From Escallonia rubra (taxonomy: Eukaryota; Streptophyta; Magnoliopsida; Escalloniales; Escalloniaceae): a DNA stretch of 64,000 nt. The stretch lies in the NCBI GenBank assembly GCA_033065855.1, contig JAVXUO010000770.1, forward strand, positions 124,001 to 188,000, written 5' to 3'. Numbering within the stretch: the first letter of the stretch is position 1; every line of letters starts with the position of its first letter. Positions 24,025-62,424 of this stretch are shown piece after piece. The position numbers and the translations under genes were made by a program. Below the pieces are notes generated by a model, which was not told where the DNA came from, searched no databases, and worked only from the letters and a program-made list of their open reading frames with translations.

Positions 24025-24879
24025 ATGGGAAGTAAAGGGATGGGGTCTACAATGGCCTCTCTTGTTACCACTCTTCTAGTGGTGCTGGTGTCTCTAAGCT
24101 TTCCATCACAAACCATTGCAAACTACGAATACTCATCCCCACCACCTCCTAAGAAGTCTCCTCCGCCACCGCCACCTCCTTACAAGTACAAATCTCCTCC
24201 TCCACCACCACCAATGTACAAGTACAAATCTCCACCACCACCGGTGTACAAGTACAAATCTCCTCCACCACCACCACCACCAGTGTACAAGTACAAATCC
24301 CCCCCACCACCAGTGTACAAGTACAAATCTCCACCACCACCGGTGTACAAGTACAAATCTCCTCCTCCACCAGTGTACAAGTACAAATCTCCTCCTCCAC
24401 CACCACCAGTGTACAAGTACAAATCTCCTCCTCCACCAGTGTACAAGTACAAATCTCCTCCTCCACCACCACCAGTGTACAAGTACAAATCTCCACCGCC
24501 ACCAGTGTACAAGTACAAATCTCCTCCTCCACCACCACCAGTGTACAAGTATAAATCTCCACCACCACCAGTGTACAAGTACAAATCTCCTCCTCCACCA
24601 CCACCAGTGTACAAGTACAAATCTCCTCCTCCACCACCACCAGTGTACAAGTACAAATCTCCACCACCACCAGTTTACAAATATAAGTCTCCACCACCAC
24701 CTCCGAAGAAGCCGTATGTATACAAGTCCCCTCCCCCACCACCTCCGGTCTACAAGTCTCCACCACCACCACCACCGAAGAAACCTTACAAGTATACCTC
24801 TCCACCACCGCCGGTATACAAGTCACCTCCACCCCCACATTATATCTACACGTCTCCTCCTCCTCCTCACCACTACTAA
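24025..24879 (+). CDS. Extensin (hydroxyproline-rich cell-wall glycoprotein), [10 protein letters not shown] type
   Basis: 284-residue structural protein. Residues 1-32 form a signal peptide ([17 protein letters not shown], cleavage predicted after TIA). The rest is repeats of Ser-Pro4 to Ser-Pro7 alternating with VYKYK, ending in SPPPPHHY. In extensins the Pro residues of SP4 are hydroxylated and arabinosylated, and Tyr-X-Tyr (here YKY) forms isodityrosine cross-links, building a wall network. I chose the ATG at 24025; the longer open frame upstream begins at a TTG. There is no intron in the coding part, but one in the 3'UTR. The antisense frames (24149-24838 and 24180-24656) are shadows of the triplet-like repeat. 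It is a paralogue of the gene at 32296: the signal peptides are nearly identical. Confidence 0.95.
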
Positions 24880-27791: not shown

Positions 27792-28920
27792 GGGAAAGTA
27801 GGGAATGACCCCCTCTACTTTACACGTTGTGCGTTTTGCCCCCCTCTACTTCAAACTTAAGTACTAAACCGCCCCACAGTTTAAGAAAATAGGCACGGTT
27901 GACGGAAACTGTTAAACTAAACAGCGCGTGGTCAACACACGCGCTGACTAATTTTTTTAAATGACAATTTTGCCCCTTCTCCTGACTCTTCAATTTCAAT
28001 TTCTTCCTCTTCACCTTTTACCACGGCACCACCGGAATGGCGCCGGCGTCAAAGTAGCCTTCAACTACCACCAATTACCGCGCCGCCGCAACAGCCCTGG
28101 CTCAATCCTCCCTCAAATCCATCTTCCTTAGCTGCGACCCCAATCCTCCCTCAACACCCGCATCGTGAGCCACAGCCACGAGCCTCTGCCTCGACAAGCC
28201 ACCGCGATCCTAATCGCACCACCGTCATACCTCAACACCACCTGCTCACCATCCCAACAACACATACCATGACGACCCACTGCCGCGATCCACTGCCACC
28301 ACGACCCTCATCGTACCTTCGTCACACCTCAACACTATCCAATCAGCCCACCTCCGCCTTCAATTGACCCACACCACCAGACGACCCACCATGGGCAACC
28401 CACCACTAGCGTCAACTCCAACCCAACACCAAAACCATAGCCATATATACCCACCCCCCGCACCACCACGGCCGGTCAAGCCATACAAACCACCACCATA
28501 AACAAACGACGGGGCGGGTTTGTAGCGTTGGGGAAGGAGGATGGTAGGTGCGGCGGTGAGGTGAAGGGATGGTGGGTGCAGCGATGGGGAAGGGGGAGGG
28601 TGAGGGCGGCGGCGGGTAAGGGGGAAGGTGAAGACAATCCACAATTTGGGAATGAGAAATTTAAAATTTTAAACCCTAATTTAAGAAGGACTAATGTTAC
28701 AAACCCTAATTTTTTAAACTAATTTGAGGTTAGAAGAATGATATTAAAATTAAATAGGATAAGGAAATAAGGATATTTTGATCATTTCACGCTATTCATA
28801 ACGGATCCGTCTAAAGTGCCCAATTTCCATAAGTGTGGGGGGGTTTAGTGATTAATTTTGAAGTGGAGGGAAAAAAATCACACATCGTGTAAAGTAGAGG
28901 TGATCATTCCCTACTTTCCC
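27792..28920. mobile_element. MULE-type non-autonomous element present only in copy A
   Basis: Inverted repeats of about 80 bp: GGGAAAGTAGGGAATGACC at the left and GGGAAAGTAGGGAATGATC on the opposite strand at the right, continuing through CTCTACTTTACACG and CACTTCAAA-type matches to CACTAAACC. Copy B has the uninterrupted site (ATCTTTAATTGTGC). Copy A has ATCTTTAA before the element and GTTTTTAATTGTGC after it, compatible with an eroded 8-9-bp target-site duplication. The interior is rich in CCACC/GGTGG and I recognise no captured gene. Confidence 0.8.
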
Positions 28921-29498
28921 AAGTTTTTAATTGTGCACAGACGAGGTCAGGATTCGCTAAGGTGGGGTCCGCAATATTTGTACTCGAGTCTGGAATCCCA
29001 ATCAATTTGTGGGGTTATATTTGAACGTGACATATGAAGACTTGTAAAATGATAAGGCGTAGTTGAAGATTAGATGCATAATATATAGAAGCTGGAAATG
29101 CATTATTGGATGTTTGAAAAGTCTGCCTGTAGAAAATGGGGCAGGTTTTCACCTACTCACATAAGAATAATCACAAAATTAGATATGATTATCATCCTTC
29201 ACAGCTTGAAAAGACACTTCAAATAGAATTTTGTCTATATTTCAAGTCCATTTCTTGTGGTGGTTTGATTTACTTGTTCACTAGGGTCCTTTAGTTTTCA
29301 AACGCACGAAAGAATATTCCTATAAAATGCTAGGAGAAAGAATAAAATGCCAAAAAAATAAAAATAAATAAAAGGCACGCTAGTTCCCCCTATAAGAGAG
29401 TACCAGTGCCAGGATCTCCAGAACTGTATCTTTTTTAAGGTTCATATGTAAACGATATATATGTTCAAGTTGCTCATGCTTCTACCATATACAAATTA

Positions 29499-29500
29499 AG

Positions 29501-29554
<54 letters not shown>
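29499..29554. repeat. (TA)n(GA)n microsatellite
   Basis: About eight TA units followed by about 20 GA units. Copy B of the segmental duplication lacks this expansion at the equivalent place (about 39131-39150). Confidence 0.85.
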
Positions 29555-29557
<3 letters not shown>

Positions 29558-31766
29558 AAACATTTTATTATCTCATAAAGAGAATCAGTTACAAGAACCA
29601 AAAAAATTCTTTGAACAGAACATGTCTTGCCTAAAGAATTTAGACTGCTTTCGAGAACTCCATTGAAAAGTGTCTAAGGATTTTGAAACCGTCCCGGCTC
29701 TTTTATCTAATCTTATATGACGATAAAATAACATCAGGTTATAACTCAAATTGATGAATCCAAAATATGACGTTGACAATAACACTATCGATATACCCAT
29801 GGAGGATTTATAAAAAGTTATTTTAATAAGCGTTTTTCGATAATATCATTTGTATATAGTTAGTTCTCTTACAAATATCCTGGATGTCTACTTGAATCAC
29901 AATGAGTCTTGTTATTTGATTACCAACTTCGACAACAATAACTTGAGACTCCCGCAAGATAAATCATTCCAAACTCTCCCGAATTACTTGTCCCTCAACG
30001 AAATTGTTTGAAACTTACATGATAAGCATGATTTGTTGTGTAATTTTGATTTGCTCCTTTAATTAACATTTTCATTCTCTCTCTTTGTTCTCCTCCTTCT
30101 TCATCTACCCAGCAAAAATCATAAGGGAAGGGAAATACAACACGCTTTCTCTCCTCGGTATGAATGAACCAAGAAAAGAACAGTTTAGGCCCTTTTCAAG
30201 AGAAAAGGGTGCCTAGATTTCTTCTCGTAAATATATATGTCTTAAAGTATAAACCATGAAAAAGAAAGCCTTTAGGTCTCATTTGACAAGTGTTTGGGCA
30301 CGAAAGATAAGAGTTTGGTACCTCTTTGACAAGACCAAAACCTATATTTTTTTTTCCTGAGATTACTTTACAGGTCATTTGGATGTAAGAAAGCTATTGT
30401 CGGTAAGAAGAGAGAGAGAGAGCTTAGAGAACACAGGTTTTGGCCTTAAGCAGTTCCATGTTTTTCATCTTGGCCAATGACTACAGGCGGCATCAAGAAA
30501 GCAAAAGTAAAAGCGTTATCGATCATTGCATCGGATCAATCTATCTGATTTTTGTGCTCCACCTGTTATACCTTTGTTGGAAATAACTTATCACTATCGT
30601 CCAGCTAAGCTAAACGACGGGTTGTTTAAATACTTAAACTTTTTGATTTCTTTGAAAAGTAATCTCGCTACTCGCGTGAGCAAAGAAGTAGACTTCAATT
30701 GTAATATATTAAATTCTCCAGATTAATCTATAAAAAAAAGAAAAAAGAACAGTACGTACCTGCTTTCAAGAAAGAAAAAAAATTAAATAAAAAAAATAAA
30801 AAAAAAACACTCATGAAACAGGCCTTAATTTTGAGTATGATCAAAATTTAGTTAATAGCTAGGCCCCTCTCTACCTTCTTAGTCAACAATATTCCAAAAG
30901 AGACTTGCCGGTGATTCCCAAAAAGTTGACTACGTTTAAATACGCCATGCAGTAGGTAGCCTCTACGTACGGCCCCTTTTGTGAACAACTAGAGAAGGAA
31001 ATTGAACGACAAACAGGAAATTGTCGGCTGACGGTGGATTTTAGGACATGGAAACACCCATGCACTTGCAAACCTCTTCATTCCTCGATCTGGATGCAAG
31101 TATTTGGCGGTCGCAATGGTACCTATTCGTGTTCTTCGAGGAACAAGAATTAAATTATGAACCAAAAAGAGTTAGGAAATACGTACAGTTAATAACCTAA
31201 ATTTTATTACATTTTCTATTTGAACGAGTGAGATTTTACTAGAATTGTAGATGAATACCGTGAAAAGACATAACCTTCTATTGGAATGTGATTAGACCTG
31301 TAATGGAAGAAGAGACGACGCTTTAAGGATGGGATCGATCAATTATAAAAAGTCATGCACTCATATTCTGGAAATAGAGAAACAAAGAATCCCGCGGCAC
31401 GTGTGTCCCCTCTGTTCCGGTCATGGAATGGGTGAAATAGATCTAGAAATGAAATTTTGCTCAACAATGAAATCTTGTCGGAACTGTCCATATCCGGTTC
31501 ATCCTTCGGAACCATATCACATTCCAGAATCCAGTCAAAGCACTTGCCCTTTCATGGTAGAATTATTTTCATAAGTTGTAGTTTTGTAAGCTAGTTCATC
31601 TGATAAACTTTCTTGATATCGAACTAAGAGACAATTTTCTAATTGGGGGTGGAGATGTGGAGTGAGAAAGGGAAAGTGCTACCGGGGGCGTGTCGTCCAA
31701 ACCCACCGAGCGGTTGTCCACCTTATTTTTTATGCGACTCCGTCACTGACTACAAAGGCATCCTAA

Positions 31767-32245: not shown

Positions 32246-32295
32246 GAGGAGAGTGCTGCTTGAGAACATAAGCAAAAGCCTTTTTGTTAGTAAAG

Positions 32296-33708
32296 ATGGG
32301 AAGAAAAGGGATGAGGCCTGCAATGGCCTCTCTTATTGCCACTCTTCTAGTGGTAATTGTGTCGCTCAGCTTGCCATTACTGACCACCGCAAACTATGAA
32401 CATTCATCCCCTCCTCCACTTCCAAAGAAGACGCCCCCGCCATTGCCTCCTTACAAATATAAATCACCACCACCCCCTCCACCAGTGTACTCACCACCAC
32501 CTCCTTACAAGTACAAATCCCCACCTCCACCACCATATGTGTACAAGTACAAGTCCCCACCACCTCCTCCACCAGTTTACAAGTCTCCTCCACCCCCACC
32601 ACCCCATATGAAACCTTACAAGTACCACTCTCCTCCTCCACCACCTCCAGTACATAAGCCTCCTTACAAATATAAATCACCACCACCCCCTCCACCAGTG
32701 TACTCACCACCACCTCCTTACAAGTACAAATCCCCACCACCACCACCATATGTGTACAAGTACAAGTCCCCACCACCTCCTCCACCAGTTTACAAGTCTC
32801 CTCCACCCCCACCACCCCATAAGAAACCTTACAAGTACCACTCTCCTCCTCCACCACCTCCAGTACATAAGCCTCCTTACAAATATAAATCACCACCACC
32901 CCCTCCACCAGTGTACTCACCACCACCTCCTTACAAGTACAAATCCCCACCACCACCACCATATGTGTACAAGTACAAGTCCCCACCACCTCCTCCACCA
33001 GTTTACAAGTCTCCTCCACCCCCACCACCCCATAAGAAACCTTACAAGTACCACTCTCCTCCTCCACCACCTCCAGTCCATAAGCCTCCACCACTTCCCC
33101 CAGTCCATAAGCCTCCTCCAGTCCATAAACCTCCACCGCTTCCCCCAGTTCATAAGCCTCCACCACTTCCCCCATACCATAAGCCTCCATCAGTCCATAA
33201 ACCTCCACCGCTTCCCCCAGTTCATAAGCCTCCACCGCTTCCTCCTGTCCATAAGCCTCCACCACTTCCCCCATACCATAAGCCTCCACCACTTCCCCCA
33301 TACCATAAGCCTCCTCCAGTCCATAAACCTCCACCGCTTCCCCCAGTTCATAAGCCTCCACCGCTTCCTCCTGTCCATAAGCCTCCACCACTTCCCCCGT
33401 ACCATAAGCCTCCACCACTTCCCCCATACCATAAGCCTCCTGCAGTCCATAAACCTCCACCGCTTCCCCCAGTTCATAAGCCTCCACCGCTTCCTCCTGT
33501 CCATAAGCCTCCACCACTTCCCCCATACCATAAGCCTCCACCACTTCCCCCAGTCCATAAGCCTCCTCCGCTTCCTCCATACCATAAGCCTCCACCACTT
33601 CCCCCAGTCCATAAGCCTCCACCGCTTCCTCCAGTCCATAAGCCTCCACCACCTTCACCCAAGAAACCCTACATATATAAGTCCCCTCCCCCGCCTTACC
33701 ACTACTAA
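32296..33708 (+). CDS. Chimeric extensin / proline-rich protein with HKPPPLPP tail
   Basis: 470 residues. Residues 1-32 are a signal peptide (MASLIATLLVVIVSLSL, cleavage after TTA). Residues about 33-260 are classical extensin modules: [29 protein letters not shown], in three 71-residue (213-bp) tandem copies. Residues about 261-450 switch to VHKPPPLPP and YHKPPPLPP units without the Ser-Pro4 motif, closer to PRP/hybrid proline-rich proteins. The end, KKPYIYKSPPPPYHY, returns to extensin type. Extensin modules are expected to be O-glycosylated and cross-linked through YKY; the His-Lys-rich part would be positively charged and could bind pectin (inference). I chose the ATG at 32296; the longer frame starts at TTG. 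The 430-codon antisense frame is a shadow of the repeats. Confidence 0.93.
   Translation: MGRKGMRPAMASLIATLLVVIVSLSLPLLTTANYEHSSPPPLPKKTPPPLPPYKYKSPPPPPPVYSPPPPYKYKSPPPPPYVYKYKSPPPPPPVYKSPPPPPPHMKPYKYHSPPPPPPVHKPPYKYKSPPPPPPVYSPPPPYKYKSPPPPPYVYKYKSPPPPPPVYKSPPPPPPHKKPYKYHSPPPPPPVHKPPYKYKSPPPPPPVYSPPPPYKYKSPPPPPYVYKYKSPPPPPPVYKSPPPPPPHKKPYKYHSPPPPPPVHKPPPLPPVHKPPPVHKPPPLPPVHKPPPLPPYHKPPSVHKPPPLPPVHKPPPLPPVHKPPPLPPYHKPPPLPPYHKPPPVHKPPPLPPVHKPPPLPPVHKPPPLPPYHKPPPLPPYHKPPAVHKPPPLPPVHKPPPLPPVHKPPPLPPYHKPPPLPPVHKPPPLPPYHKPPPLPPVHKPPPLPPVHKPPPPSPKKPYIYKSPPPPYHY
32451..33077. repeat. 213-bp tandem repeats inside extensin 2
   Basis: TTACAAATATAAATCACC recurs at 32451, 32664 and 32877, a constant period of 213 bp (71 codons). 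The copies are nearly identical, so expansion or homogenisation was recent, and copy number may vary between alleles. Confidence 0.9.
33078..33650. repeat. 27-bp HKPPPLPP coding repeats
   Basis: Around 20 units coding xHKPPPLPP, with V or Y at the first position. They are grouped in higher-order blocks that begin with an irregular PPxVHKPPPLPP unit at about 33118, 33190, 33313 and 33442. Confidence 0.85.
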
Positions 33709-37126: not shown

Positions 37127-37136
37127 TGGTATGTTT

Positions 37137-40100
37137 TCGACTATCAGTAGTACCAGTTTCCATCTTCCCCTAAAGCTACGCGGGGCGGGCTACTGCCCAC
37201 TCTGCACATGTGGCCTTACTTATGCTCATAGCATCGAGCATTCTCCATATTTGTCTCTTATACTTAAAATGCCGCTAAAGTTTTCCACGAGAACTCTGTT
37301 CATTTGTATGGTTAATTAGCTCAAGAAAACTAAGGCATTCTTTCATTTGAGACCTTGTGTGAAAAAAAAATTCAAACTTTTGAAAGTTTCAAGTTTTGAG
37401 CGTGGTGGCAATTTACTTTCATTTGAGACCCGGCCTTTGCCCCTTCCATTGAGTGAAAAATTCAAACTTTTTTGAAGGTTTTCAAGTTCTGACTTCTGAG
37501 CATGGTGGCAATTTACTATGCATTGGGCTCGTTCTTTATCTATCTTCCAACAACTATAAATAGACATAATTAGCAAAACATATATAACCATTACAGAAAC
37601 CATTATGTTAAGCTCTAGTGCTCCGTTTAAGGAATTTTTATTTATGAGATATCTCTCGGGCCTCTGATTGACTTCAAAGTTGATGCGAAATAGTTGATTA
37701 ATAGCTTGTTGGGTGATAAGTGGATAAATAAGAAAAACGAAAACCCAGGAAATCCTTGCCCTCGCAGGCTCGATCACACCATGAGAGTTTCTCTCCAAAA
37801 AAGTAAATCTAAGGGCATGGCTTCTGCAGGAATATCAATTCTTTTTGTCAGTTGGGGTTGTTCGTTTACCATTATTACTTTTTACTTTTGTTTTATATTT
37901 TTATTTTCATCATTTTTCGTATCTAATTAAGATATATGGTCATGTAATGTTCTCTATCACTTTGACAATTTCTTTTTATCTACTTTACTCCAACAATGGA
38001 TGAGAGGCGCGCGGCCAAAGAAACGGTTTTCATATTTTCGGATTGTTTGAGTTAGATTTTTTCAGAACAAAAACAGAAAATGATGAACGCATGTGCAGTA
38101 ATATTTTTTTAGTAATAATTATAGTAAAAACAAAAAATAAACGAACAATGCTAGTTTCTTATTCAGTAAATGTACAACAAAGGACAAAGTAATTAGAGTG
38201 TTATCTTTCTTCTTCATTCAGCCAATGAGCAAACAGAATTGTCTATTTAGTTGCCGACAGTAGATCGTTCAAACGACACATGTAATATTGGTTAAAGTAC
38301 AAATATGGAGTTTTCAACTGTTTTTTTTGGCGATCAAGTAGGGTTAAGATTACACTAATGGTACGGGCTAAAAAGTAAATCATTTTTCTTTTCGATCTGC
38401 AAACTTGTACGGGCTAATGGAATTGTCTACCTAACTGTCAAAACTAAACCGTTCAAACCACACATGTAAAATTGGTTAAATTTATTAACAGAGATAATGG
38501 TCGTTGCGGATTAAAAAGTAAGTAACTTTTCTTTCTGATATGTAGACACATTTTGTGTACGTAACAACTTATATACGACAAAACATAAATCTTTAATTGT
38601 GCATAGACGAGGTCGGGATTCGCTACGGTGGGGTCCGCAATATTTGTGCTCGAGTCTGGAATCCCAATCAATTTGTGGGGTTATTTGAACGTGACATATG
38701 AAGACCTGTAAAATGATAAACCGTTGTTGAAGATTAGATGCATAATATATAGATGCTGGAAATGCATTATTGGATGTTTGAAAAGTCTGCCTGTAGAAGA
38801 TGGGGCAGGTTTTCACCTACTCACACATAAGAACAATCACAAAGTTAGATATGATTATTATCCTTCACAGCTTGAAAAGACACTTCAAATAGAATTTTGT
38901 CTATTCTTCAAATCCATTAATTTCTTGTGGTGGTTTGATTTACTTGTTAACTAGGGTCTTTATTTTCACACGCACAAAAGAATATTCCTATAAAATGCCA
39001 AAAAAAACAAAATATCAAACTTGTCCCCCCTATAAGAGAGTACTTGTGTCGGGATCTCCAAAACTGTATCTTTTAAGGTTCACATGTAAACGATATGTTC
39101 AAATTGCTCACGCTTCTACCATGTACAACTTGATATATATTTTTTTGGTTAAATAGTACAAAAAAATTATTATCTCATAAAGAGAATCAGTTACAAGAAC
39201 CAAAAAAAATCTTTGAACTTAACATGTCTTGCTTGAAGAATTTACGAGAACTCCCTTGAAAATTGTCTAAAGGTTTTGAAGTCGTCCTGACTCTTTTATC
39301 TAATCTTATATGACGAGAAAATAACATCAGATTATAACTCAACCTGGTGAATCCAAAATATAAAACTTGACCATAACACTATCTATATACCATGGAAGAT
39401 CTATAAAAAGCTATTTTAATAAGCATAATATCGTTTGTATATAGTTTTTCTTACAATTATCCTGGAGGTCTACTTGAATCACAATGAGTCCTGCTATTTG
39501 ATTACCAACTTCGACAACAGTACCTTGAGACTCCCGCATGATAAAGCATTCCAAACTCTCTCGAAAAACTTGTCCCTCAACGAAATAGTTTGAAACTTAC
39601 ATGATAAGTATGATTTGTTGTGTAACTTTGATTTGGTGCCTTTAATTCACATTTTCATTCACTCTCTTTGTTCTCCTTCTTCTTCACCTACCCACCAAAA
39701 ATCGTAAGGGAAATACATCACGCTTTCTCTCCGCAGTATATGAATGAACCATGAAAAGAACAGTTCAGGCCCTTTTCAAGAGAAAAGGGTGCCTAGATTT
39801 CTTCTCGTAACTATAAATATATGTCTTAAAGTATAAACCATGAAAAAGAAAGCCTTTAGGTCTCATTTGACAAGTGTTTGGGCACAAAAGATAGAGTTTG
39901 GTACCTCTTTGACAAGACCAAAACCTATATTTTTTTTTTCCTGAGATTACTTTACAGGTCATTTGGATGTAAGAAAGCTCTTGTCAGTAAGAAGAAAGAG
40001 AGCTTAGAGAACACAGGTTTGGCCTTAAGCAGTTCCATGTTTTTCATCTCCGCCAATGATTACAGGCGGCGGCATCGAGAAAGCAAAAGTAAAAGCGCGA

Positions 40101-41219
40101 TATATCATTACATCGAATCGACCAATCTGATTTTTATGCTCCACCTGTTATAATTTATCACTATCATGTCTTGGATAAAAAGGTTGTCTAAACACTTTAA
40201 CTTTTTAATTTCTTCGAAAAGTAATCTCGCTGCTATTCGCTTGAGTAAAGAAACATACTTCTGTTTTAATATATTGAATTCTCCAGGTTATTCTATTACA
40301 AAAAGAAAAAGAACAGTTCTTTCAACAAAAAAAAAAAAAAAAACATAAAAGAAAAACACTCATCAAACAGGCCTTGATTTTGAATATGATCAAAAATTAG
40401 TTAATAGGCCTCTCTCTCTACCTTCTTAGTCAACAATATTCTAAAAGAGACTTGCCAGTGATTCCCTCTACCTTCTTAGACAACAATATTCTACAGAAGG
40501 AAATTGAACGAAAAACAGGAAAATGTCGGCTGACGGTGGATTTTAGGACATGGAAACACCATGCAATTGCAAACCTCTTCATTTCAATCAAATTTTTTTT
40601 TTTTTGCAAACCTCTTCATTCCTCGATCTGGATGCAAGTCTTTGGCGGTCGCAATGGGTTACGCGTAGCTAGTTGAGCTTCAAAATGTTATTCACTTTGA
40701 TTAGTGAATCACACAAGCTAGAGGAACACGTATTAAATTATGAACCAAAAGAGTCGAGAAATTCATACGGTCGATAACCTAATTGTTACTACATTTTTTT
40801 GTTTGGGTTCTTACCAGAATTATAGATGGATACTGTGAAAAGACATAACCTTCTATTGGAATTTGATTAGACATGTAATGGAAGCAGAGACGACGCTTTA
40901 AGGATAGGATAGATCAATTATAACAAGTCACGCACTCATATTCCTAAAAAATAAGAACAAAGAATCCCGCGGTACGTGTATCCCTTCTGTTCCGGTCATG
41001 GAATTGATGAAATAGATCTAGAAATGAATTTACGATCAACAATGAAATCTTATCGGAACTGTCCATATCTGGTTCATCCTTGGGAAACATATCACATCCC
41101 AGAATTCCAGTCAAAGCACTTGTCCTTTGCTAGTAGAATTCTTTTCTTAAGTTGTAGATGTAAGCTAATTCATCTGATAAACTTTCTTGACATCGAACTA
41201 AGAGACCATTTTCTAATTG
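37137..41219. repeat. Segmental duplication, copy B
   Basis: Paralogue of 26332-31648 (copy A), in the same orientation and collinear. It lacks the MULE present in copy A and the (GA)n expansion, and has small indels throughout. Frames open in both copies (for example 37343-37798 on the reverse strand) start at non-ATG codons and are unrecognised. With the two extensins upstream of each copy, the arrangement is extensin-block-extensin-block. Confidence 0.9.
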
Positions 41220-45499: not shown

Positions 45500-46030
45500 A
45501 TAGTTAAATATTAATATTTATATCAATAATTCTTAACAACATTTTATTTAACGTCATTAAATTAAAATCATTAAAGACATTTAACGATCATTAGTTATTG
45601 TAGCATAAAAAGTTTTATTTCTCTTTCTACGATCCTAGTATATACTTTTCCAAACATTATACATGTCTTACTTTGTGACTTTTTCGTTATCTTTCTTTAC
45701 ACCATTTGCACTAACTTATCCTAAATTTCTGCATGTTGGTCTGGTTAGGTCGGTGTGCCCTCTCACATCAAAATAATTTTACAGTTCATCAATATATGAT
45801 AATAGTTCGCCGTATTTGGACAAAGTTGTGTTTTTCTATTAGCCCAAGTTGTGGAAGAAGGTTCGTTGCACCTAGACACGCCATTTATTTTTCGTGCTCC
45901 ATCGCAGTGAATTTTTTTTAGTAAAATAACAGAGAGAAAATCACGTTGAAAATCTGAGTTGTTTTCCTTTTTTGTTTACATTGATTCAAAAATTTTGCTC
46001 ATATATGATTGTGAAGTACAACGCAAGATC
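45500..46030. repeat. Repeat unit copy Z (diverged)
   Basis: Clearly related to 46430-46960, for example TTTCTGCATGTTGGTCTGGT against TTCCCTGCATGTTGGTCCGG, but with many substitutions. It is the oldest of the tandem copies. Confidence 0.75.
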
Positions 46031-46266
46031 CACATATCTAGAAACCGAAACTTTTTTATAATCAATATTTAATTAAAGATGTAGCCTAATCCTATTTCGA
46101 AAGTAAATAAAAATCTGGCGATATTAATATGGACTGGTAATTAGTACTTTACTTGATATACTGTAAATCGCCTGCGTCGTAAAGCCATACTCTTTATAAA
46201 AAATGAAAAGCATGTATGTTAATACCTGAACTATAGAGAGGATGGACTCTTCTTCTTCTTCTTTTC

Positions 46267-47183
46267 TCTTGACTTTGATCTCTTCCCCCCATTTCTCTGT
46301 ATCTTTTGTTCTTTATTTTTTGGCTTTGAACAAAAACTCTTCTAAACTTTTCAAAGCATATCCTCGGACAATTAATACTATATGGTTTCCCTGCTATCTA
46401 ATCATTGGAAAATAGTTCTTCATGTAACGACAATTACTTACTTTCAGCAGTAATTTTTATCAGTATTTTCTTTCGCGTCATTAATTAAATATAAGTCATT
46501 AAAAATATTTAATGATCTTTAATTATTACAGTACGATAAAAGAAGTCGTAGCTATCTTGCGACAATCCCGTACTAGTAGGAGCTATTCCAAACATTAAAC
46601 GTGCCTTACTTACGTGATTTTTTTTGGTTGTCATTCATTACACCATTGTCTTTAACTTAGCCGGCCCTAAATTCCCTGCATGTTGGTCCGGTTAGGTTGG
46701 TGTGGCCTTTCACATCAAAATAATTTTGGAGTTCAGATAAATGATAATAGTTCATCATATCTGGACAAAATTTTGTTGTTCTATTAGCCCAAGTCGTGGA
46801 AGAAGATTCGTTGTACCTAGACACATATTTTTTTTTTTGGGTACTCCATCCCATTGAAAAACTTCTTGGTAAAAAAAATGGAGAGAAAATTGCACTGAAA
46901 ATCTGAGTTGATTTCCCTTTTGTTTACATTGATTGATTCAAAAAGATTTCTCATAAATGATTGTGAAGAAAGACCATTTTTGCATACAAAGTAAGTGACA
47001 TTTTGTATATCTAGGAATTAAACTATCTTGATTATTATTATATAGTTAAGTTGAAACTGAAAGAATATAACTTCTCTTCCCTACTTAGCATGCCTATCAT
47101 TATGGTATTTGACATTCAATCAATTAAATAAGTTTTACTTTCATCTCTTTTCAAGTCAACACGTTCCACTTATATATATATAT
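46267..47183. repeat. Repeat unit copy X
   Basis: Nearly identical to 47766-48693, from TTGATCTCTTCCCCCCAT to TCAACACGTTCCACTTA, ending in (TA)n at 47170-47183. The small frames in it (46657-46854 on the reverse strand) recur in copy Y simply because the DNA is repeated. Confidence 0.85.
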
Positions 47184-47765
47184 GGGAAAAATGAATATAA
47201 GGCTAGCCTCATGCAATTTGCGTGAGGCTAGCAACTAAAACGACGTAGTTTTGATAAAGTTTTGTTAAAACAAATGTAGTCAAATTTTCATTTCTTGTTT
47301 TCTCTTTCCCTTTTCGTTGTTTTTCTCCTTGTTTCCTTCACCCTGTCGCAGGCCATAGCAAGCCACCACCACCATCACACCCATCATCTCTGCCGTAGAC
47401 TACCAACCTTCCATTGCTGGCAACCGTCAACAGCCATTCTTGCCGCAAAAAGGTCTTCGCCAACTCACTACCTTCATAGTTTCCACCCCCACGAGCTTCA
47501 GGACTGTTGTCAAAATCCAACCACCGTCGCCACCATCACACCCACCTTCTCTTAATGCAGACCAACCACCTTCCATCGCCGCAGAGACCGCCCACCATCA
47601 CTACCACAGAGACTGTCATTCCCCCGCAGAGAAACATAATAGAGAGATAGCACATGCAATGGCTGATTTTCAATATGTGCGTCAAAATCAAGCACTGCGA
47701 CAGAGGTAAAATACACTTCGCGATGGAAAAATTGGTGGTGCTGGCACCACCGTTAAAATACATTT
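47184..47765. other. Insert between repeat copies X and Y
   Basis: Begins directly after (TA)n with GGGAAAAATGAATATAAGG and a 31-bp hairpin (47202-47232). The rest is CCACC-rich low-complexity sequence. A frame from 47295 looks like a signal peptide followed by poly-His, but it starts at TTG and the body is compositional, so I do not call a gene. Confidence 0.45.
47202..47232. repeat. 31-bp hairpin
   Basis: GCTAGCCTCA and TGAGGCTAGC are perfect 10-bp arms around an 11-base centre that itself pairs further (TGCAA with TTGCG, allowing wobble). It lies 18 bases after a (TA)n tract. Confidence 0.8.
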
Positions 47766-48690
47766 CTGACTTCGATCTCTTCCCCCCATATCTTTGTATC
47801 TTTTGTTCTTTATTTTTTGGCTTTGAACAAAAACTCTTATAAACTTTTCAAAGTATATCCTCGGACAATTAATACAATATATGGTTTCCCTGCTATCTAA
47901 TCATTGGAAAACAGTTCTTCATGTAACGACAATTACTTACTTTCAGCAGTAATTTTTATCAATATTTTCTTTTGCATCATTAATTAAATATAAGTCATTA
48001 AAAATATTTAATTATCATAGTACGATAAAAGAAGTCGTAGCTATCTTGCGACAATCCCGTACTAGTAGGAGCTATTCCAAACATTAAACGTGCCTTACTT
48101 ACGTGATTTTTTTTGGTTGTCATTCATTACACCATTGTCTTTAACTTAGCCGGCCCTAAATTCCCTGCATGTTGGTCCGGTTAGGTTGGTGTGGCCTTTC
48201 ACATCAAAATAGTTTTGGAGTTCAGATAAATGATAATAGTTCGTCATGTCTGGACAAAATTTTGTTGTTCTATTAGCCCAAGTCGTGGAAGAAGATTCGT
48301 TGTACCTAGACACAATATATTTTTTTTTTTTGGGTATTCCATCCCATTGAAAAACTTCTTGGTAAAAAAAATGGAGAGAAAATTGCACTGAAAATCTGAG
48401 TTGATTTCCCTTTTGTTTACATTGATTGATTCAAAAAGATTTCTCATAAATGATTGTGAAGAAAGACCATTTTTGCATACAAAGTAAGTGACATTTTGTA
48501 TATCTTGGAATTAAACTATCTTAATTATTATTATTATTATTATTTAGTAAAGTTAAAACTGAAAGAATGTAACTTCTCTTCCCTACTTAGCATGCCTATT
48601 GTAGCATGCCTATCATTATGGTATTTGACATTCAACCAATTAAATAAGTTTTACTTTCATGTCTTTTCAAGTCAACAAGTTCCACTTAAA

Positions 48691-48693
<3 letters not shown>
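47766..48693. repeat. Repeat unit copy Y
   Basis: Paralogue of copy X, in the same orientation, offset about 1.5 kb. It ends in AACAAGTTCCACTTA and then the long (TA)n at 48694-48764. Confidence 0.85.

Positions 48694-48764
<71 letters not shown>
48694..48764. repeat. (TA)n microsatellite bounding element A
   Basis: About 35 uninterrupted TA units. The same position in copy X has a short (TA)n, so the microsatellite predates the insertion of element A. Confidence 0.9.
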
Positions 48765-48767
<3 letters not shown>

Positions 48768-49152
48768 GGAGTTGATCCGTTGAGAGCGCTAGCAAAATAG
48801 GAGAAGTTGCAAACGCGATCTGGCCATCCACGCAAGATCTGTGGACAGTGCATATCTTTTTTTGCGTTTTTTTTAAGTTTGCCCGCTAAATAATGCAGCG
48901 GATGATTTTTTTGACAAAAAAACCCTTTTAAGTCTGTCCGCTACACAATGTAGCGGACAAGTAGGCAGGCACTTCTCTCTCTCTCTCTCTCTCCTTTCTA
49001 TCATTATGACTGTTTCTCTCTCTTCTGTCATCAATTTCTTACTTTTTATGAATCTTCCTCTGTCCTTTCTCTCTCTTTTCTCTCTCATCCTCCTCTCCCC
49101 TCCTCATTTCTTCTTCGTCTCTCTCTCTCTCCTGAGGTATTAGTAGTGTAGA

Positions 49153-49350
49153 GAGAGATCAAAGTGGCGCTGGACATGCCTACACATCGGCGACAAGTGA
49201 AAGCAGTGGTAATCTGAGTTCATGTTCCTCAACCAACTCGAATGTTAATGGTGGTAATTTTGATTTTGACTGGGATTGGAATGTGGGTGTTGAGGGGACT
49301 TGGGGAGCGTGGGGTGAGGAAGAAGACAACACGATTTCTTGGCTGTAGGA
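49153..49350 (+). pseudogene. Coding-like Ser/Asn-rich acidic segment in element A, unassigned
   Basis: One frame reads SATSESSGNLSSCSSTNSNV, then NFDFDWDWNVGVEGTWGAWG, then EEEDNTISWL before a stop. The composition (Ser/Asn/Gly stretch, then acidic and Trp-rich) resembles the C-terminal tail of a transcription factor such as some R2R3-MYBs, but I cannot name it. It lies 90 bp before the EIL fragment and may be a second captured piece. Confidence 0.35.
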
Positions 49351-49443
49351 CAACACAGTCCTTTAGATTCTTTTTTTTTTGTGACTGCACAAGGGCTGAA
49401 GGAGTTTCTCTCTTGACCAGGCCAGCTCCGTTAATAACCCTCT

Positions 49444-49830
49444 TTGAACCAGGTAGCTCAAGAAGATCATATCAGGTTCGCATTGTTTTGCAAACCAGCA
49501 ATCGGCACCTCTGACAATCTCTGGGCGTGGTGGAAGGAAAAAGTCAAATTTGATAGGAATGGCCTTGCTGTAATTGCCAAGTACCAGGCAGACAATTCAG
49601 TCCCTGGGAAATTTGAGGATTGCACTGCAGTGGCCTCCACTCCTCATACCTTGCAAGAGCTCCAGGACACTACTCTTGGCTCACTTTTGTCTGCTCTGAT
49701 GTAGCACCGTGATCCACCACAGAGGCGAAAAGGGAATAGCCCCTCCATGGTGGCCTACTGGAAATGAGGAATGGTGGCTTCAGTTAGGCCTGCCTAAGGA
49801 TCAAGGACCGCTTCCATATAAGAGAAATGA
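49444..49830 (+). pseudogene. Captured EIN3/EIL DNA-binding-domain fragment in element A
   Basis: The first frame (49444-49702) reads [20 protein letters not shown].. then [26 protein letters not shown] follows where the family has Gln (ALMQH). After a frame change near 49728, [22 protein letters not shown] continues the same domain. These blocks are characteristic of ETHYLENE INSENSITIVE3/EIL transcription factors, which act in ethylene signalling. The segment starts and ends inside the domain, lacks the residues between PQRR and EKG (a deletion of about 10 bp), and runs into GAGA-rich element sequence at about 49835. It cannot encode a functional EIL protein. Confidence 0.9.
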
Positions 49831-50256
49831 GAGAGGTAGAGAGAGTCAGAAAAGTAAGAAGAGATTGAGAGAGAAAGAGAAAAAAAATGATGAGAGAAAG
49901 GAGAGAGAAAGAAAAGAATGTCATAACATTAATGAGGGAAAATGAGAGAGAAAGAGAAAAAAGCTAAAAAGATTCGTCCGCTACATAATGTAGCGGATGA
50001 GAGAAAGGACAGAATGTCAGAACATTAATGAGGGAAAGGAGAGAGAAAGAGAAAAAAGCTAAAAAGATTTGTCCGCTACATAATGTAGCGGATGAACTCT
50101 TTTCTGCAAGGTATTTTTGTCAAAAAATCATCCGCTACATTATGTAGCGGACAGACTTAAAAAAACGCAAAAAAAAAGATCTAGATCGAACGTGGACGGC
50201 CAGATCGCGTTTGCAACATCTCCTATTTTGCTAGCGCTCTCAACGGATCAGCTCCA

Positions 50257-50272
50257 TATATATATATATATA
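50257..50272. repeat. (TA)n between elements A and B
   Basis: Short (TA)8 run separating the right end of A from the left end of B. Confidence 0.9.
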
Positions 50273-50599
50273 CATGGGAGCTGATCCGTTGAGAGCGCGG
50301 GCAAAATGGGAGATCTTGCAAACGCGATCTGGCCGTCCACGACCGATTTGTGGACGGTACAGATCTTTTTTTTTTACGTTTTTTTAGCCCGTCCGCTATA
50401 TTATGTAGCGGTCGATTTTTTTGACAAAAATACCCTCCGACTTAAAAACAGCCCATCCGCTACATTATGGAGCGGACATAATTTTCTGACATTTTTTTTC
50501 TCCCTCTCATTAATGCTCTGACTCTCTCTCTCTCTCTCTCTCCCCTTTCTCTCATCCGGTACATTATGTAGCGGACAAGTTTTCAGAATTCTTGGCTCT

Positions 50600-50893
50600 T
50601 TTTACAGATCCAAACAGAGTTTACAAACTTCGAGTCAAGTTGCAACGTCTCAGATTGTGAAAAAGGCTACCCAGTTGCTACTCTCAGTTTCTGTGTTTTC
50701 CTTGCTTTTTGCTCATTCCTCGTGGTGCTCTTTCTTACTTTGTTCATTCAAGTTATACTTGTCTGCATTTCCCTTCCAACTTCTGGCCCATTCGCTGGAC
50801 AAAAGCTACATATTCCTTATCTGTAATGGAATTCTAATGTTCATTGCAAAGACATCTGGCTTGCTTAGTTCTCACAGGAAGCCGAAAATATGA
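50600..50893 (+). pseudogene. Captured plant membrane-protein fragment in element B
   Basis: An open frame without an ATG at its head reads KKATQLLLSVSVFSLLFAHS, a hydrophobic stretch, then FPFQLLAHSLDKSYIFLICN and GILMFIAKTSGL before TGA at 50891-50893. The (D/N)K-YIFL-CNG-L-FIAK-SGL pattern resembles an uncharacterised plant family of small membrane proteins (DUF4408/DUF761-like; recalled, not searched). The fragment probably covers the N-terminal membrane part of such a gene, entered mid-frame. Confidence 0.45.
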
Positions 50894-51019
50894 TGGGAAA
50901 TGGTAATATCGGTGCTCTCCAGTTAATGGAGGAGCGAAATGTGAGTCGATGACGCCGGAATCGCGCTGTGCTATGCGGTGACGACGACCCGTCTCTGGCG
51001 CTGGTTCAAGCAGCTTGAG

Positions 51020-51131
51020 TCCACCCCATAGCAGTCCCGCCGATGTGTGCAATTTTGAAGCTTTAATTTCGAGGGTTTACTGGTTTCCAAGTTCAAATCC
51101 ACCCCATAGCAGTCCCGCCGATGTGTGCAAT
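51020..51131. repeat. 34-bp direct duplication, 78-bp period
   Basis: TCCACCCCATAGCAGTCCCG-CCGATGTGTGCAAT occurs at 51020-51053 and again, unchanged, at 51098-51131, just upstream of the captured nuclease exon. Confidence 0.9.
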
Positions 51132-51173
51132 CTCTGAATCTTTCAGAGTACAAAGCAGTAAATAGCAGCAAAT

Positions 51174-51241
51174 ATGGGTGTAAAAAACCTGTGGGACATC
51201 CTAGAATTCTGCAAGAAAACCCTCCCTCTTCACCATCTTCA
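51174..51241 (+). pseudogene. Captured first exon of a RAD2/GEN-type nuclease gene in element B
   Basis: ATG at 51174 starts MGVKNLWDILEFCKKTLPLH-HL, which matches the conserved N-terminus of plant RAD2-family structure-specific nucleases (GEN-like/SEND1 group: MGVxxLWDxLxxCKKT..LxxLQ). The reading ends at CTTCA|GTAAGT, a good splice donor, followed by intron-like sequence to about 51300. So an exon with its native exon-intron border was taken, showing genomic DNA rather than cDNA was captured. The catalytic part is absent. Confidence 0.7.
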
Positions 51242-51851
51242 GTAAGTTCCAGTCTTTATCCTTATTCTGCAAAACCCACTTGAAATATCATACGGGTTCA
51301 CACTCATGTACTCAAGTGGTGAAAGAGAAGGGAAGGAGAGAGAAAGAGACAGAAGAAACAGTCAGAAATTGATGAGAAATAGGGAGAGATGTCAGCAAAA
51401 TTAATGACAGATTCAAAAAAAAGTGGTGCTACTCGTCTGCTACATAATGTAGCGGACGTAACGGACTCTGTCATTTCTGTCAGAACATTAATGACAGAAA
51501 GGGAGAACATTAATGACAGAAAGAGAGAACATTAATGACAGAAAGAGAAAAAAGGTCTGAAAACTTGTCCACTACATAATGTAGCGGACGTAACGGACTG
51601 TCATTTATGTCAGAACATTTATGACAAAAAAGAGATAAAATGTCTGAAAACTTGTCCGCTACGTAATGTAGCGGACAGACTCTTTTTAAGTTGGAGGGTA
51701 TTATTGTCAAAAAATAGTCTGCTACATAATGTAGTGGACGGACTTAAAAAAAACACAAAAAAAAGATCTGGACCGTCCACAGATCACGCGTGGACGGCCA
51801 GATCGCGCTAGCAACTTAACTCAGTTTGCTAGCGCTCTCAACGGATCAGCT

Positions 51852-51853
<2 letters not shown>

Positions 51854-51899
<46 letters not shown>
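51854..51899. repeat. (TA)n between elements B and C
   Basis: About 23 uninterrupted TA units between the right end of B and the left end of C. Confidence 0.9.
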
Positions 51900-51901
<2 letters not shown>

Positions 51902-52088
51902 GAGCTGATCCATTGCTAGTGTTAGCAACTTAACCCAAGTTGTTAGCGCGATCTGGCTGTCCACGCGTGAGAATAAACGGCCAGATCGCGCGCCACAACA
52001 GTAATTTTTTTCACCGGACGGTAAATTATCGTCCGCTACATTATGTTGCGGATGGCCAAATCGCGCGCTAGCAATGGATCACGACCCT
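51900..52088. mobile_element. TA-flanked short element C
   Basis: 189 bp. Left end GGGAGCTGATCCATTGCTAG, right end (opposite strand) AGGGTCGTGATCCATTGCTAG. It contains CGCGATCTGGC arms and one palindrome copy (52031), and is bounded by (TA)n on both sides (right run 52089-52099). It shares end motifs with A and B but has diverged. It appears to be a minimal deletion derivative or a sister subfamily with no captured DNA. Confidence 0.75.
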
Positions 52089-52099
52089 ATATATATATA

Positions 52100-52465
52100 C
52101 TACTTATAAAAGTACGAAAAAGTGTAAATCATTTTTTGGACAAAACTATCTTTATAATTTTGCTTTAATATCATGATTGACCTTGATTGTAACCATTCAT
52201 AAATAATGTCATGGCCCCCAAAAATCTCTTCATCTCTCCATGCTAGATGTATGGTTCCTCTCTCAAAGTTAATACCAAATGCTAGAGAGATGGAACTCTT
52301 CAACTTTTAGCCAACCTTAAATTTATTGAAGCTTTTCAACTTTAATTTTAACCAATCATTCAATTTTTTTAGTAGCAAACATAAATGTACATCTATACTC
52401 TCTATAGATTGATTTAATTGATTTAGTTTTGTCATTGAATTGTAAAATTGAATTACACCTAAGTT
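52100..52465. other. Region before the MULE transposase
   Basis: AT-rich with no recognised end of the MULE. The left inverted repeat expected for the element at 52470-56366 is not visible here. Confidence 0.35.
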
Positions 52466-52469
52466 CAAC

Positions 52470-53395
52470 ATCTTTTATGTATCTCACACCTCCAAAATAA
52501 TTGTCGACAACATCAAGCAATTCCCAAGTGTAGCTTATACAAGTTATGTGGACCAATTTGACAAGGAAATGGAGAGGCTTAAAACAACATTGAGGAAGCA
52601 TGGAAGTGGTTGGCCAATAAACCAGTTTCACATTGGTCCAGGTCAAACTTTAGGCCTTAAATATGACATGTTGTGTAATAACCTATGTGAGCGCTTTAAT
52701 GGTAATATAGTAGACATCAAAAGACAAACCAGTAATTCAGTGTCTTGAGGTGATTTGGGACAACATGATGAAGAGAATGATGGTGCAAAGAGAGACAATG
52801 AGGAAGAAGCTTGTTGATGGCCCTTTTACACATAGGATTGCTAAGAAGTTAGATAATATCAAAAAGGCAGTTGGTTGAGCTACTGCACTTGGGCTGGAAG
52901 AGGAACATACCAAGTTAGTATGATAAGAGGGGGTCAGTTGCTACTGTAGGTCATGGGATTTGACAAGCATCTCATGTGTACATGTTGTGGCAGCAATGCA
53001 TTACAAGGGTGTCATGCGAAATGAGTATGTTGCTGATTGTTATAGGAAGAGTACCTTCATGATAGATATGAGCACATGATTTTCCTTATGAATAGTAGTG
53101 ATTTGTGGCCCAAGACAGGATTGTCCCCAATATTACCACATATATCTGACAACCAGCCTGATAGACTATCCATTGCTAGGAGAAGACAAGCAGATAAACC
53201 AAGAGCTAGTGCCACCTATTCTCTAAACCTAAGGAAGGGCCTTTTATGAATCAGGTGTAGCAGGTGCCAAGGTGCTAAGCATAACAGAAGGACTTGCACA
53301 ACATCCCTGGGAAATGAGGAGGGACAAAATGCTCCACCTTGCACTCAGCTAGCACAGCCAGGAAAGGCTGCAACGGATGTAAGTGTTCCTTAACT
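52470..53395 (+). pseudogene. MURA-like transposase of a Mutator-like element, broken
   Basis: Recognisable blocks in shifting frames are MDQFDKEMERLK..WPINQFHIG; YDMLCNNLCERFNGNIVDIK (the DxxxNNxxExFN motif after the catalytic core); MMVQRETMRKKLVDG; a SWIM-like CVHVVAAMHYKGV..EYVADCYRKSTFM; and a zinc knuckle CSRCQGAKHNRRTC (CX2CX4HX4C). At least two frameshifts and several stops interrupt it, and the N-terminal catalytic part is missing or unreadable. The exon ends near ACGGATG|TAAGTG at 53379. Short further pieces (53461-53500, 54650-54760) may be 3' exons separated by the hAT insertion. It is the transposase side of the element whose other gene is the GRF-type gene at 55244-55846. Confidence 0.8.
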
Positions 53396-53659
53396 ATTGT
53401 GATTATTATTATTATTTACTACTATACTTGTTTAATATTATATATTTTTGTGTATGAACAGGATAATTCTATAAGTGCATCTGGACCAAGTATGTAGAGA
53501 ACTCCTCTTTTTACCCCCCCTCCTTATGCCATAATTACCTGCTAGAAGGACCGTAAGTAATCTTGCCTGGCCTGAATTTAATTCATTTGGTTTGGACTAT
53601 TAGTAATATTGTGTGAAAGGATTTTTGTGCACAATAAAAGGAAGTCAGTTGATCACAAT

Positions 53660-59900: not shown

Positions 59901-60961
59901 AAATTATCTTGATTGGCTTGTAAATAGAGCTGCACAGCACAAACGACATCAGTGACTCGCCGAAGGGTTTCTGGCGGAGGATCTCCGATGCTAAGTCAGA
60001 AAGTGTGTGAGGAATTTTGAGAGTATTTTCAGAATGTAGAGTTTACCTCTTTCCTTCTTTGGACTTTCTTTATATGGGGCTTCCATTAATGGCTTGGTTA
60101 TCATCTCCTTAAAGGGGAATTACCAGATTTAATGGGAGGTTACCAAAATTAATGGGCGGTTATTGCCCATAACTAGAGAGTGAGAGAGTAAGTAAATGCC
60201 AGATCCCACTTCTCTGAGAATTAAAGGGCGGTTATGGTGCCTTCTGATGGTGACACGTAGGTGGTATTTTTTTTAACCATATCACTTTTATTTGGAAAAA
60301 AAACTCTACTTATCATGCTATTATTGATAAATAATAGCATGACAAATATGTAGTACAAGACAAAGTACACTAAAAGAGAAAAAATATGATACCAAAATTC
60401 CCAAAGCATATCCTCAAACAAGGAGCGGCACAAAGTCTCATTGTAAATACGAGAACGACAAAAGAATAAACGGCTTCAACGTTGAATAACCCCTGCCGAA
60501 GGATTAGCACATCCTCACCACAAATCAAAACACTAACAATAAACAAGAACAAAAATCCGGTCCCCAAAGCAAAAGTAAATCACAATACAACAAATTACGA
60601 AATAAGTCACAAGCAACATTGACAAAAAGCACCAACTAACAAAAGTGAGATCATGAGGGTTAACGTTTACAAGATAACAAAAATTCCCAGAATAAGGTTG
60701 AACGAACCCAAGCTGTGCAACGCGATAACTTCCAACATAACCTGAGAAACCTCATCGCTGACCTACGCATCACAAACGCGTGAACCCAACAACTCGAAAA
60801 CGGCCCTAGAGCCCTTTTGTTCCACAAACACACATCTTAGCCACTACTACAACCCTTAGACACCACCAATGCCAAAACACTTCCATCGCCACCATCATCT
60901 CCACAACACTCCACCGACGAGACGCGTCAACACACTCCCACCGACCCTCTTGGGGGGAAGT
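59901..60961. other. Repeat-like sequence left of the gypsy element
   Basis: 59935-60230 resembles a retroelement leader (GAAGGGTTTCTGGCGGAGGA-type sequence). 60260-60950 is A/C-rich with no gene. The CCACC-rich tail (60840-60950) is similar in style to 63010-63180 across the gypsy element. Confidence 0.35.
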
Positions 60962-62424
60962 TGTCAGGAATTCTCCTGCAGGAAAGCTATGAAGGGGACC
61001 AAGAAGTGCATCAGTTGATGCAACTCCTCATATTAGAGCCTATGGAAACATCTGAGTATTGCCTTGAACAAGGTGTTCTTAGATTCGGAGGTAAATTATA
61101 TGTTGGAAGTAATGGGGGGCTGAGGCAAAAAATCATCCAAACTTTGCATGCCTCAGGCATTGGGGGCCATTCTGGGAACACAGCCACTTTTAAGAGGATA
61201 GCTGCACTCTTTTTCTGGCCTTTGATGAGGAGTGACATAAAGAATGCAATATTGCAGTGTGAAATTTGCCAAAAAAACAAGGCTGAACATGTCCCTTACC
61301 CAGGGCTTCTACAACCATTACCTATTCCCTCACAATTTTGGAGTAGTGTCTCAATGGACTTCATTGAAGGACTTCCAAAATCTGAAAACAAGGAAGTGAT
61401 TATGGTGGTGGTAGATAGGCTTAGCAAAGTCACTCACTTCATTGCACTCAGTCATCCTCACACAGCTCAAAACGTGGCTTGAGCCTACTTTGACCATGTT
61501 TTCAAACTTCATGGTACACCAGACAACACTGTCAGAAATGGAGGGAGCATTTTTTTGAGTCAATTCTGGCGGAAGCTGTTTTAACTCTTGGACACCAAGC
61601 TAAGTCTTAGCACAACTTACCATCCCCAAAGTGATGGCCAAACTGAGAGAGTAAACCAATGCTTAGAGACTTATCTTAGATGCTTATGTGGGGATAGGCT
61701 TAAAGCTTGGTCTAAATGGTTGACCCTTGCTGAATATTGGTTTAATACTTCCTACTACCACAGTGCCCTTAAGATGACTCCATTTCAGGCATTATATGGG
61801 TATAGTCCTAGACCTCTTAACCTGGGCACAAATGAAACCACTCACATAGCCTCAGTTGACTCATACATGGCTGATAGAACCAAGGTTTTAAACCTACTCA
61901 AGCAGAATTTGGTGCTAGCACAAGAAAGAATGAAGTTCTATGCAGACAAGAAGAGGACTGAAAGGGAGTTTGCAGTGGGTGATTTTGTTTACTTGAAATT
62001 GCAGCCATACAGACAGAGCAGCCTAGCTCTTAGAAGGAATTTGAAGCTCTCACCTAGATATTATTGTCCTTTTGAGATTTTGGCTAAGGTGAGCAAGGTG
62101 GCTTACAGGCTTAAATTACCCCTAGAGGCTCAACTCCATCCTGTATTCCATGTATCACTGTTGAAGGGTGCAATGTAAAGAAGTGACTACTGCTCCAACT
62201 CTTCCTCCAGTAAATGATGCTGGTCAGGTAACTCTTGAACCAACTCACATACTAGGATCATAGAATGATTAAAAAGGGGTCTAGCTCTGTACCACAAGTC
62301 CTGGTAGGCTGGACTAACCTGCTAGAGGGAGATACTACATGGGAAGAGTGGGATGTCTTAAAGACCAGATTTCCTGAGTTTGTTGCAGAAGTGGATGAAA
62401 GTTTTTTTGGGGGGGGGGGAGGGA
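60962..62424 (+). pseudogene. Ty3/gypsy chromovirus integrase-chromodomain remnant
   Basis: One frame from 60962 to 62178 with two in-frame stops (61480 and about 61584) encodes, in order: GVLRFGGKLYVGS; an H2C2 zinc-binding region (HASGIGGHSGNTATFKRIA ..CEICQKNKAEH); the integrase core (SMDFIEGLPKS, first Asp present); and SDGQTERVNQCLE (Glu present). Then follow the C-terminal GDFVYLKLQPYRQSS and LHPVFHVSLLK. At the second catalytic Asp block the family SDRD is replaced by VRNG. After a frameshift at about 62178, a chromodomain-like QVLVGWTNLLEGDTTWEEW follows (62265-62390). A polypurine tract (62409-62424) ends the segment. Gag, protease, RT and RNase H are missing. Confidence 0.88.

Follow-up and report, generated by a model that had tools for sequence, protein, structure and literature searches.

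Several families of non-autonomous Mutator-like elements (MULEs) are known to occupy microsatellites. SaTar elements, described from guayule, rice, sorghum and citrus, are about 0.4-1.9 kb long, reside in (TA)n and other microsatellites, form end-to-end stacks that are never nested, and have longer transposase-bearing relatives (PMC5907723; this and the other reports are cited for the parts of their text that were available). MuTAnT and AutoMuTAnT of Medicago target (TA)n and display long fold-back terminal inverted repeats (TIRs), a variable number of terminal G residues and a Jittery-like transposase (PMC4486113), and the very abundant, Mutator-related Ac-mMITEs of pineapple are flanked by (TA)n, with 46% of intact copies clustered by adjacent insertion (PMC8449440). 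The TIRs of Micron, a rice family, match an autonomous Mu-like element (PMC5907723). Capture of host gene fragments is described for Pack-MULE and other Pack-TYPE elements, in which the fragments lie between TIRs, are amplified after capture and can form multi-gene chimeras (PMC8903248, PMC13317346), and fusion of neighbouring elements has been proposed as a route to these (PMC8903248). Jittery-like MULEs of grapevine and melon carry a FAR1-related transposase gene with a ULP gene downstream, the ULP gene being found in either orientation among MULEs (PMC2528002). The present analysis concerns an array of three elements, A, B and C, in Escallonia rubra, located in a stretch of 64,000 nt (the window; contig JAVXUO010000770.1, positions 124,001-188,000). 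Judged from sequence comparison, they are in all likelihood non-autonomous members of a large, (TA)n-sited, gene-capturing MULE family of the FAR1 (probably Jittery-like) branch, for which longer relatives with the same termini would supply the transposase.

Coordinates below are window positions, and L- and C-numbers denote other regions of the genome. The array runs head to tail from 48767 to 52087 and is preceded by a 71 bp (TA)n microsatellite (48694..48764) followed by GT. Element A (48767..50255, plus strand, 1489 bp) is a gene-carrying, MULE-type non-autonomous element bounded by TIRs, and its cargo recurs in ten copies. A linker of 20 bp (50256..50275), made up of 17 bp of TA (50256-50272) and CAT, separates it from element B (50276..51853, plus strand, 1578 bp), which is chimeric, also carries gene fragments, and is delimited by TIRs and genome matches. 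After a further 46 bp of (TA)n (51854..51899) comes element C (51900..52087, plus strand, 188 bp), a derivative of the A/B family resembling a miniature inverted-repeat transposable element (MITE) with a decayed right end, and then 12 bp of (TA)n (52088..52099). All three left ends show the TIR start, GGGAGYTGATCCRTTG, without a mismatch; A and B have one G fewer in it on the right, and the right end of C differs from it by 3 mismatches in 16. Complementarity between the two TIR arms is 92% over 73 nt for A and 82% over 145 nt for B, and a consensus from 46 arms is about 140 bp long. The single-strand fold of the left TIR of B (z of -4.07) is that of a fold-back TIR. An initial description made from the letters of the window (the sequence-only reading) had proposed three (TA)n-linked elements with common inverted termini, and this is borne out, with the bounds now resolved exactly.

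An exact search of the 566-Mb assembly with the 22-base terminus gives 544 places (273 forward and 271 reverse), against 0 + 0 for the reversed control, so the abundance of the terminus is not due to chance. Flanks were read in 40 genome regions covering 55 of the first 100 terminus places listed, namely the first 45 in list order plus ten from five widely spaced pairs (C408, C469, C826, C853 and C869); the first TIR search scored 40 of 3370 candidates. By inspection, a simple repeat adjoins all 55 exact ends and none lies in unique DNA. In 50 of them the adjoining 24 bp contain a TA run of 10 bp or more, compared with 176 of 8000 random positions (2.2%) in the same loci, and at the remaining five the repeat is (TG)n, (CA)nTATAT or degenerate TA. 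TATATA is found within two bases of GGAG at 45 of the 55. A looser terminus match in unique DNA (L048:64) is probably due to chance. Allowing up to three terminus mismatches, the 40 regions hold 23 complete elements, the shortest 222 bp and the longest 8.6 kb, together with 14 more back-to-back junctions, each with a gap of 12-120 bp that consists of microsatellite, perfect or imperfect. No internal family terminus was found in the 23 elements or in A, B and C, and the arrays are non-nested. A genome-wide family with (TA)n flanks and serial arrays, as the sequence-only reading had supposed, is supported on all three counts.

The array habit in itself is not new: arrays of (TA)n-targeted MULEs are already published for SaTar (PMC5907723), Ac-mMITE (PMC8449440) and MuTAnT (PMC4486113), in the available parts of those reports. 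By description, the Escallonia family is like SaTar in its microsatellite-flanked copies and its non-nested, microsatellite-linked arrays, like Ac-mMITE in its abundance, (TA)n flanks and adjacent insertion, and like MuTAnT in its (TA)n sites, fold-back TIR, variable terminal G residues and the presence of short and long members. Micron (rice) and TAFT (maize), known here via other papers only, are likewise flanked by (TA)n.

The sequence-only reading had left the family unassigned and had suggested looking for a longer relative with a transposase. Such relatives exist, and they encode a FAR1-type MULE transposase, accompanied by PMD and Ulp1-like genes. Both PF10551 and PF03101 were matched in three elements with TIRs of the array family (L010, L013 and L015). 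The domains detected are PMD, FAR1 and MULE in L010 (with a C48 match just under the cut-off), FAR1 and MULE in L015, FAR1 and SWIM in L017, and FAR1, MULE and SWIM in L013. In the pair C156 (L012 and L013), with ends about 12.4 kb apart, the PMD and C48 domains are on the opposite strand to FAR1, MULE and SWIM, and the pair carries fragments of chalcone synthase and carboxylesterase genes between its terminus and the transposase. These two fragments are fused in one open frame at L013:4451-5116, in a transposase-bearing element. A transposase match was also sought in L009 (8.6 kb between ends) and none was found. The distance from a TIR end of the same orientation inward to the transposase start is 1027-1163 bp in nine of 13 placements. 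A protein search of the genome, in which 93 of 3843 candidates were scored, gave matches of at least 88% for all 93, and 56 of these have an open frame of at least 770 amino acids. For ten of the 56 the upstream DNA was examined: eight have a TA-type repeat with an unambiguous TIR beside it (0-2 mismatches in 14), and of the other two, one shows a partial terminus only (L070) and one is masked (L073).

The nearest named protein outside the genome is a carrot FAR1-RELATED SEQUENCE 5-like protein (46%), and one unnamed protein reaches 48%. The FAR1, MULE and SWIM domains are as in FAR1/FHY3 relatives, and the FAR1 branch to which the family transposase is assigned is probably Jittery-like. A Helitron or long terminal repeat (LTR) origin of the family was rejected in view of the long TIRs and the MULE transposase. 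The FAR1-type transposase and Ulp1-like gene of the long elements are also features of the grapevine and melon Jittery-like MULEs; in contrast to the Escallonia family, microsatellites are mentioned zero times in the available text on those elements, where PMD was not searched for (PMC2528002). A difference from SaTar is that the longer SaTar relatives (AgS-MULE1 and four of rice) are called defective in the part of that report available (PMC5907723).

Elements A and B had been thought to carry fragments of unrelated host genes, and these prove to be EIN3 in A and an XPG-type nuclease in B. The first piece of the A cargo (about 49140-49330) had no Pfam match. The second (49490..49823, plus strand) encodes part of the EIN3 DNA-binding domain (Pfam PF04873, 1.7e-25 and 4.1e-12; PDB 4zds). 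Its likely donor gene, L059, is intact in the E. rubra genome and 98% identical to an Escallonia herrerae protein; the piece in A is 92% identical to L059, from which it differs in lacking 11 bp and in having a stop codon in frame. In a search for further copies (15 of 15 candidates scored), the same deletion and a stop absent from the donor (TAG in nine, TAA in one) were found in ten of ten element copies. As both changes are common to all ten, a single capture followed by spread is indicated. The copies occupy up to nine sites, with L056 and L058 alike at 97% in one flank, in a comparison of 15 of the 20 flanks (five could not be cut out). Three other flank pairs, that of the window included, gave partial matches of 75-78%, which may represent neighbouring family members. 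Every EIN3 copy has at least one terminus adjoining a microsatellite.

Capture is not confined to A and B. The 17 non-autonomous elements sampled for cargo contain 122 open reading frames (ORFs), which between them match 11 Pfam families (EIN3, four LRR models, SPO22/ZIP4, LEA_3a, SACS, DUF5323 and, weakly, WRKY and TPR); most ORFs had no match, and none matched a transposase family. Five of the 17 carriers can be named: L046 (SPO22/ZIP4), L047 (LRR), L021 (LEA_3a), L041 (SACS) and L043, an A-type copy with EIN3. The TPR match, in L046, is below the cut-off, and the DUF5323 and weak WRKY matches were not traced to a carrier element. The SPO22/ZIP4 meiosis domain of L046 lies in a 290 amino acid open frame (L046:1539-2408) inside this non-autonomous element, and the frame could be expressed from the TIR. 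The EIN3 donor, the XPG-type donor and the further Pfam families together bear out the proposal that gene capture is a trait of the family. In this the Escallonia elements are like Pack-MULEs, with identifiable host gene fragments (donors L059 and L062) and spread after the capture of EIN3.

The left part of B (50276..50908, plus strand) corresponds to an element, X, with matches to L061 (94%) and L063 (91%, to 50866), and the following part (50909..51590, plus strand) aligns with another, Y (L060, 91%), to which the right arm of B (51528-51853) is 84% identical; in this search 40 of 58 candidates were scored. By these alignments B is a chimera of the contents of two other elements, with the joint at 50908/50909. 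The X part of the cargo had no Pfam match. The Y part holds an extra copy of a 34-bp donor stretch (51020..51053, plus strand), placed before the main captured piece and ending in a slip-back joint at which CAAT is shared. The main piece (51050..51316, plus strand) comprises the leader, the first exon and the start of intron 1 of the XPG-type nuclease gene (intact donor L062, 93.7%). The two joined exons of L062 match XPG_N at 4.4e-9, with exon/intron limits read by eye, and the first exon alone had no Pfam match. As this cargo runs from the leader through the exon into the intron, its template was seemingly genomic DNA and not cDNA.

How X and Y came together can be read in two ways. B was perhaps formed by fusion of neighbours in an array, for which it is a candidate and not a proof. 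Template switching during gap repair inside a single element is a serious alternative, judged just short of an even chance, and the slip-back joint at 51053, which is present in both Y and B, is a signature of such copying. The X/Y joint itself has no shared base when compared with L061 and L060, and other X copies match up to 5 bases further. Fusion is favoured over switching by the arms of B, which are of different kinds (GCGGG on the left as in L063, GCTAG on the right as in Y) and 81% alike, but this argument is weak because L061, a copy of X, carries GCTAG at the corresponding end. Fusion within arrays has also been reported for SaTars (PMC5907723) and proposed for Pack-TYPE elements (PMC8903248), in the available text of both.

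In an alternative judged unlikely, (TA)n is not chosen at all: elements would insert at any site and the repeats would grow at their termini later, or the repeats would be filler from excision or from circles that integrate by recombination, as in the circle model of the SaTar report (PMC5907723, available part). Growth of the repeats is suggested by a paralogue of the left flank (46270..47183, plus strand, about 93% identical to 47767-48704), which ends in a (TA)n of 13 bp without an array, versus 71 bp beside A. The DNA that follows this paralogue differs from the right flank of the array, and it represents half an empty site at best. The last (TA)n of the array is directly adjoined by the left end of module D (52100..52525, plus strand), an unrelated dispersed repeat (57 match rows; 40 of 237 candidates scored) with a fixed left end, CTACTTATAAAAG. 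Short TA runs precede D in most copies read (L064-L069): five of these six other copies have no family neighbour and only a short run such as TATA at the left end, again consistent with growth, and one (L069) is joined to a family member via (TA)n. Empty sites shorter than filled ones are also published (PMC5907723, PMC4486113, available parts). Against this alternative, the (TG)n and (CA)n flanks, of which L009 and L022 give examples, are more readily explained as old target repeats than as new TA filler. Growth from random sites should also have left some ends poor in repeats, and of the 55 exact ends sampled none lies in unique DNA.

Several points count against a (TA)n-targeting MULE family as proposed here. 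A target-site duplication (TSD), the MULE hallmark of 8-11 bp and classically of 9 bp in Pack-MULEs, was unreadable at all 55 exact ends, because their flanks are simple repeats. For MuTAnT, TSDs of 9 nt were inferred at 14 copies outside perfect (TA)n (PMC4486113, available part), and none was seen in the Escallonia family. A complete empty site for the array was sought and not found; its right flank being a repeat, only the left half could be compared. The sample was chosen by exact terminus and so favours young copies, and five of the sampled pairs were picked for wide spacing. In four of the 13 placements the transposase lies at other distances from the terminus (653, 2152, 2250 and 2437 bp). 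That A-B-C is instead a single composite element with internal (TA)n, moving as a unit, is very improbable, for although the three have common termini and orientation and all lie inside 3.3 kb, A-type elements are found at other genome sites, the two parts of B reside in different other elements, and the sampled elements of up to 2.3 kb contain no internal TA, TG or CA run of at least 12 bp, in line with the sequence-only reading of three elements rather than one. Some copies of A do, however, have other family members beside them.

A palindrome of 21-23 bp, RTCCGCTACATWATGTAGCGGAY, is present in 13 copies inside A, B and C (48881..52053), in fixed positions relative to the ends of the elements; neither it nor module D had been mentioned in the sequence-only reading. 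A survey of 20 elements of 0.6-2.3 kb, among them A and B, gave 125 copies, and shuffled sequences gave none. Measured from the nearer end, 36 lie at 110-120 bp, 25 at 160-175, 16 at 175-205, 10 at 220-235, 9 at 250-265, 15 at 270-295 and 5 at 300-320, and in 18 of the 20 elements a copy occurs about 115 bp from both ends. The palindromes are putative binding sites for a dimeric transposase. A literature search for the letters of the terminus and of the palindrome returned three unrelated papers.

Right of D, a decayed MuDR-type transposase remnant is found at about 52526-53430 (SWIM by Pfam, the rest by eye, its other parts having no match). This MURA-like fragment was rejected as the parent of the array: it lies beyond D, is of MuDR type by eye, and the transposase pieces of the family itself have no match in the window. 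The stretch 47184-47766, which separates the two copies of the flank, starts at (TA)6 with GGGAAAAATG and is possibly another insertion at a TA site. Large local duplications (76-94%) involve 26329-31645 and 37134-41219, as well as 45515-48704, and part of the left flank of the array is present in three copies among them. Elsewhere in the window are two extensin-like proline-rich genes, identified by eye, with tandem internal repeats (24013-24879 and 32284-33708, the latter with a 213-bp unit repeated three times), and open frames at 60961-62178 that by eye resemble an LTR retrotransposon integrase.

Each half of this biology is known, the (TA)n-targeting arrays on the one hand and gene capture on the other, and what is unusual is the presence of both in one family. 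No family joining the two was found in the open-access literature, a scope that most subscription papers fall outside. In the available parts of the reports on the (TA)n-sited families, three of five rice SaTar families are labelled non-Pack-MULE and the terms "capture" and "gene fragment" are absent (PMC5907723); the same terms are absent for Ac-mMITEs, which, unlike the Escallonia family, are short MITEs for which no autonomous partner was found (PMC8449440); and MuTAnT, with 218 copies of which 90% are 200-300 bp, has no gene capture described (PMC4486113). Conversely, "microsatellite" is absent from the main text of the Pack-TYPE and Pack-MULE papers, as available (PMC8903248, PMC13317346).

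A mechanism can be proposed in which the transposase, or its partners, would insert elements into short TA runs, and these runs would lengthen after insertion or during repair. Each insertion would leave (TA)n on both sides, so that later arrivals could settle beside elements already there and leave them intact. Repair copying with template switches may be the way in which host DNA is acquired, and neighbouring elements could fuse, perhaps as in B, a step that follows the Pack-TYPE model (PMC8903248) and the SaTar fusions (PMC5907723) as set out in the available text. A more tentative idea, possible but on the doubtful side, is that (TA)n targeting and capture cooperate: elements would be stored side by side, neighbours would fuse and be re-mobilised, and unrelated exons would be combined as B combines X and Y, with the phased palindromes serving to bind the transposase and so to flag the outermost ends.

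Elements that capture genes and elements that insert into a harmless repeat are, in most descriptions, not the same, and here both habits are found in one high-copy family with identifiable donors and many transposase frames still open. This one genome could serve to study what determines the choice of TA repeats, by what route MULEs acquire host DNA, and whether exons are shuffled by the fusion of stacked elements.

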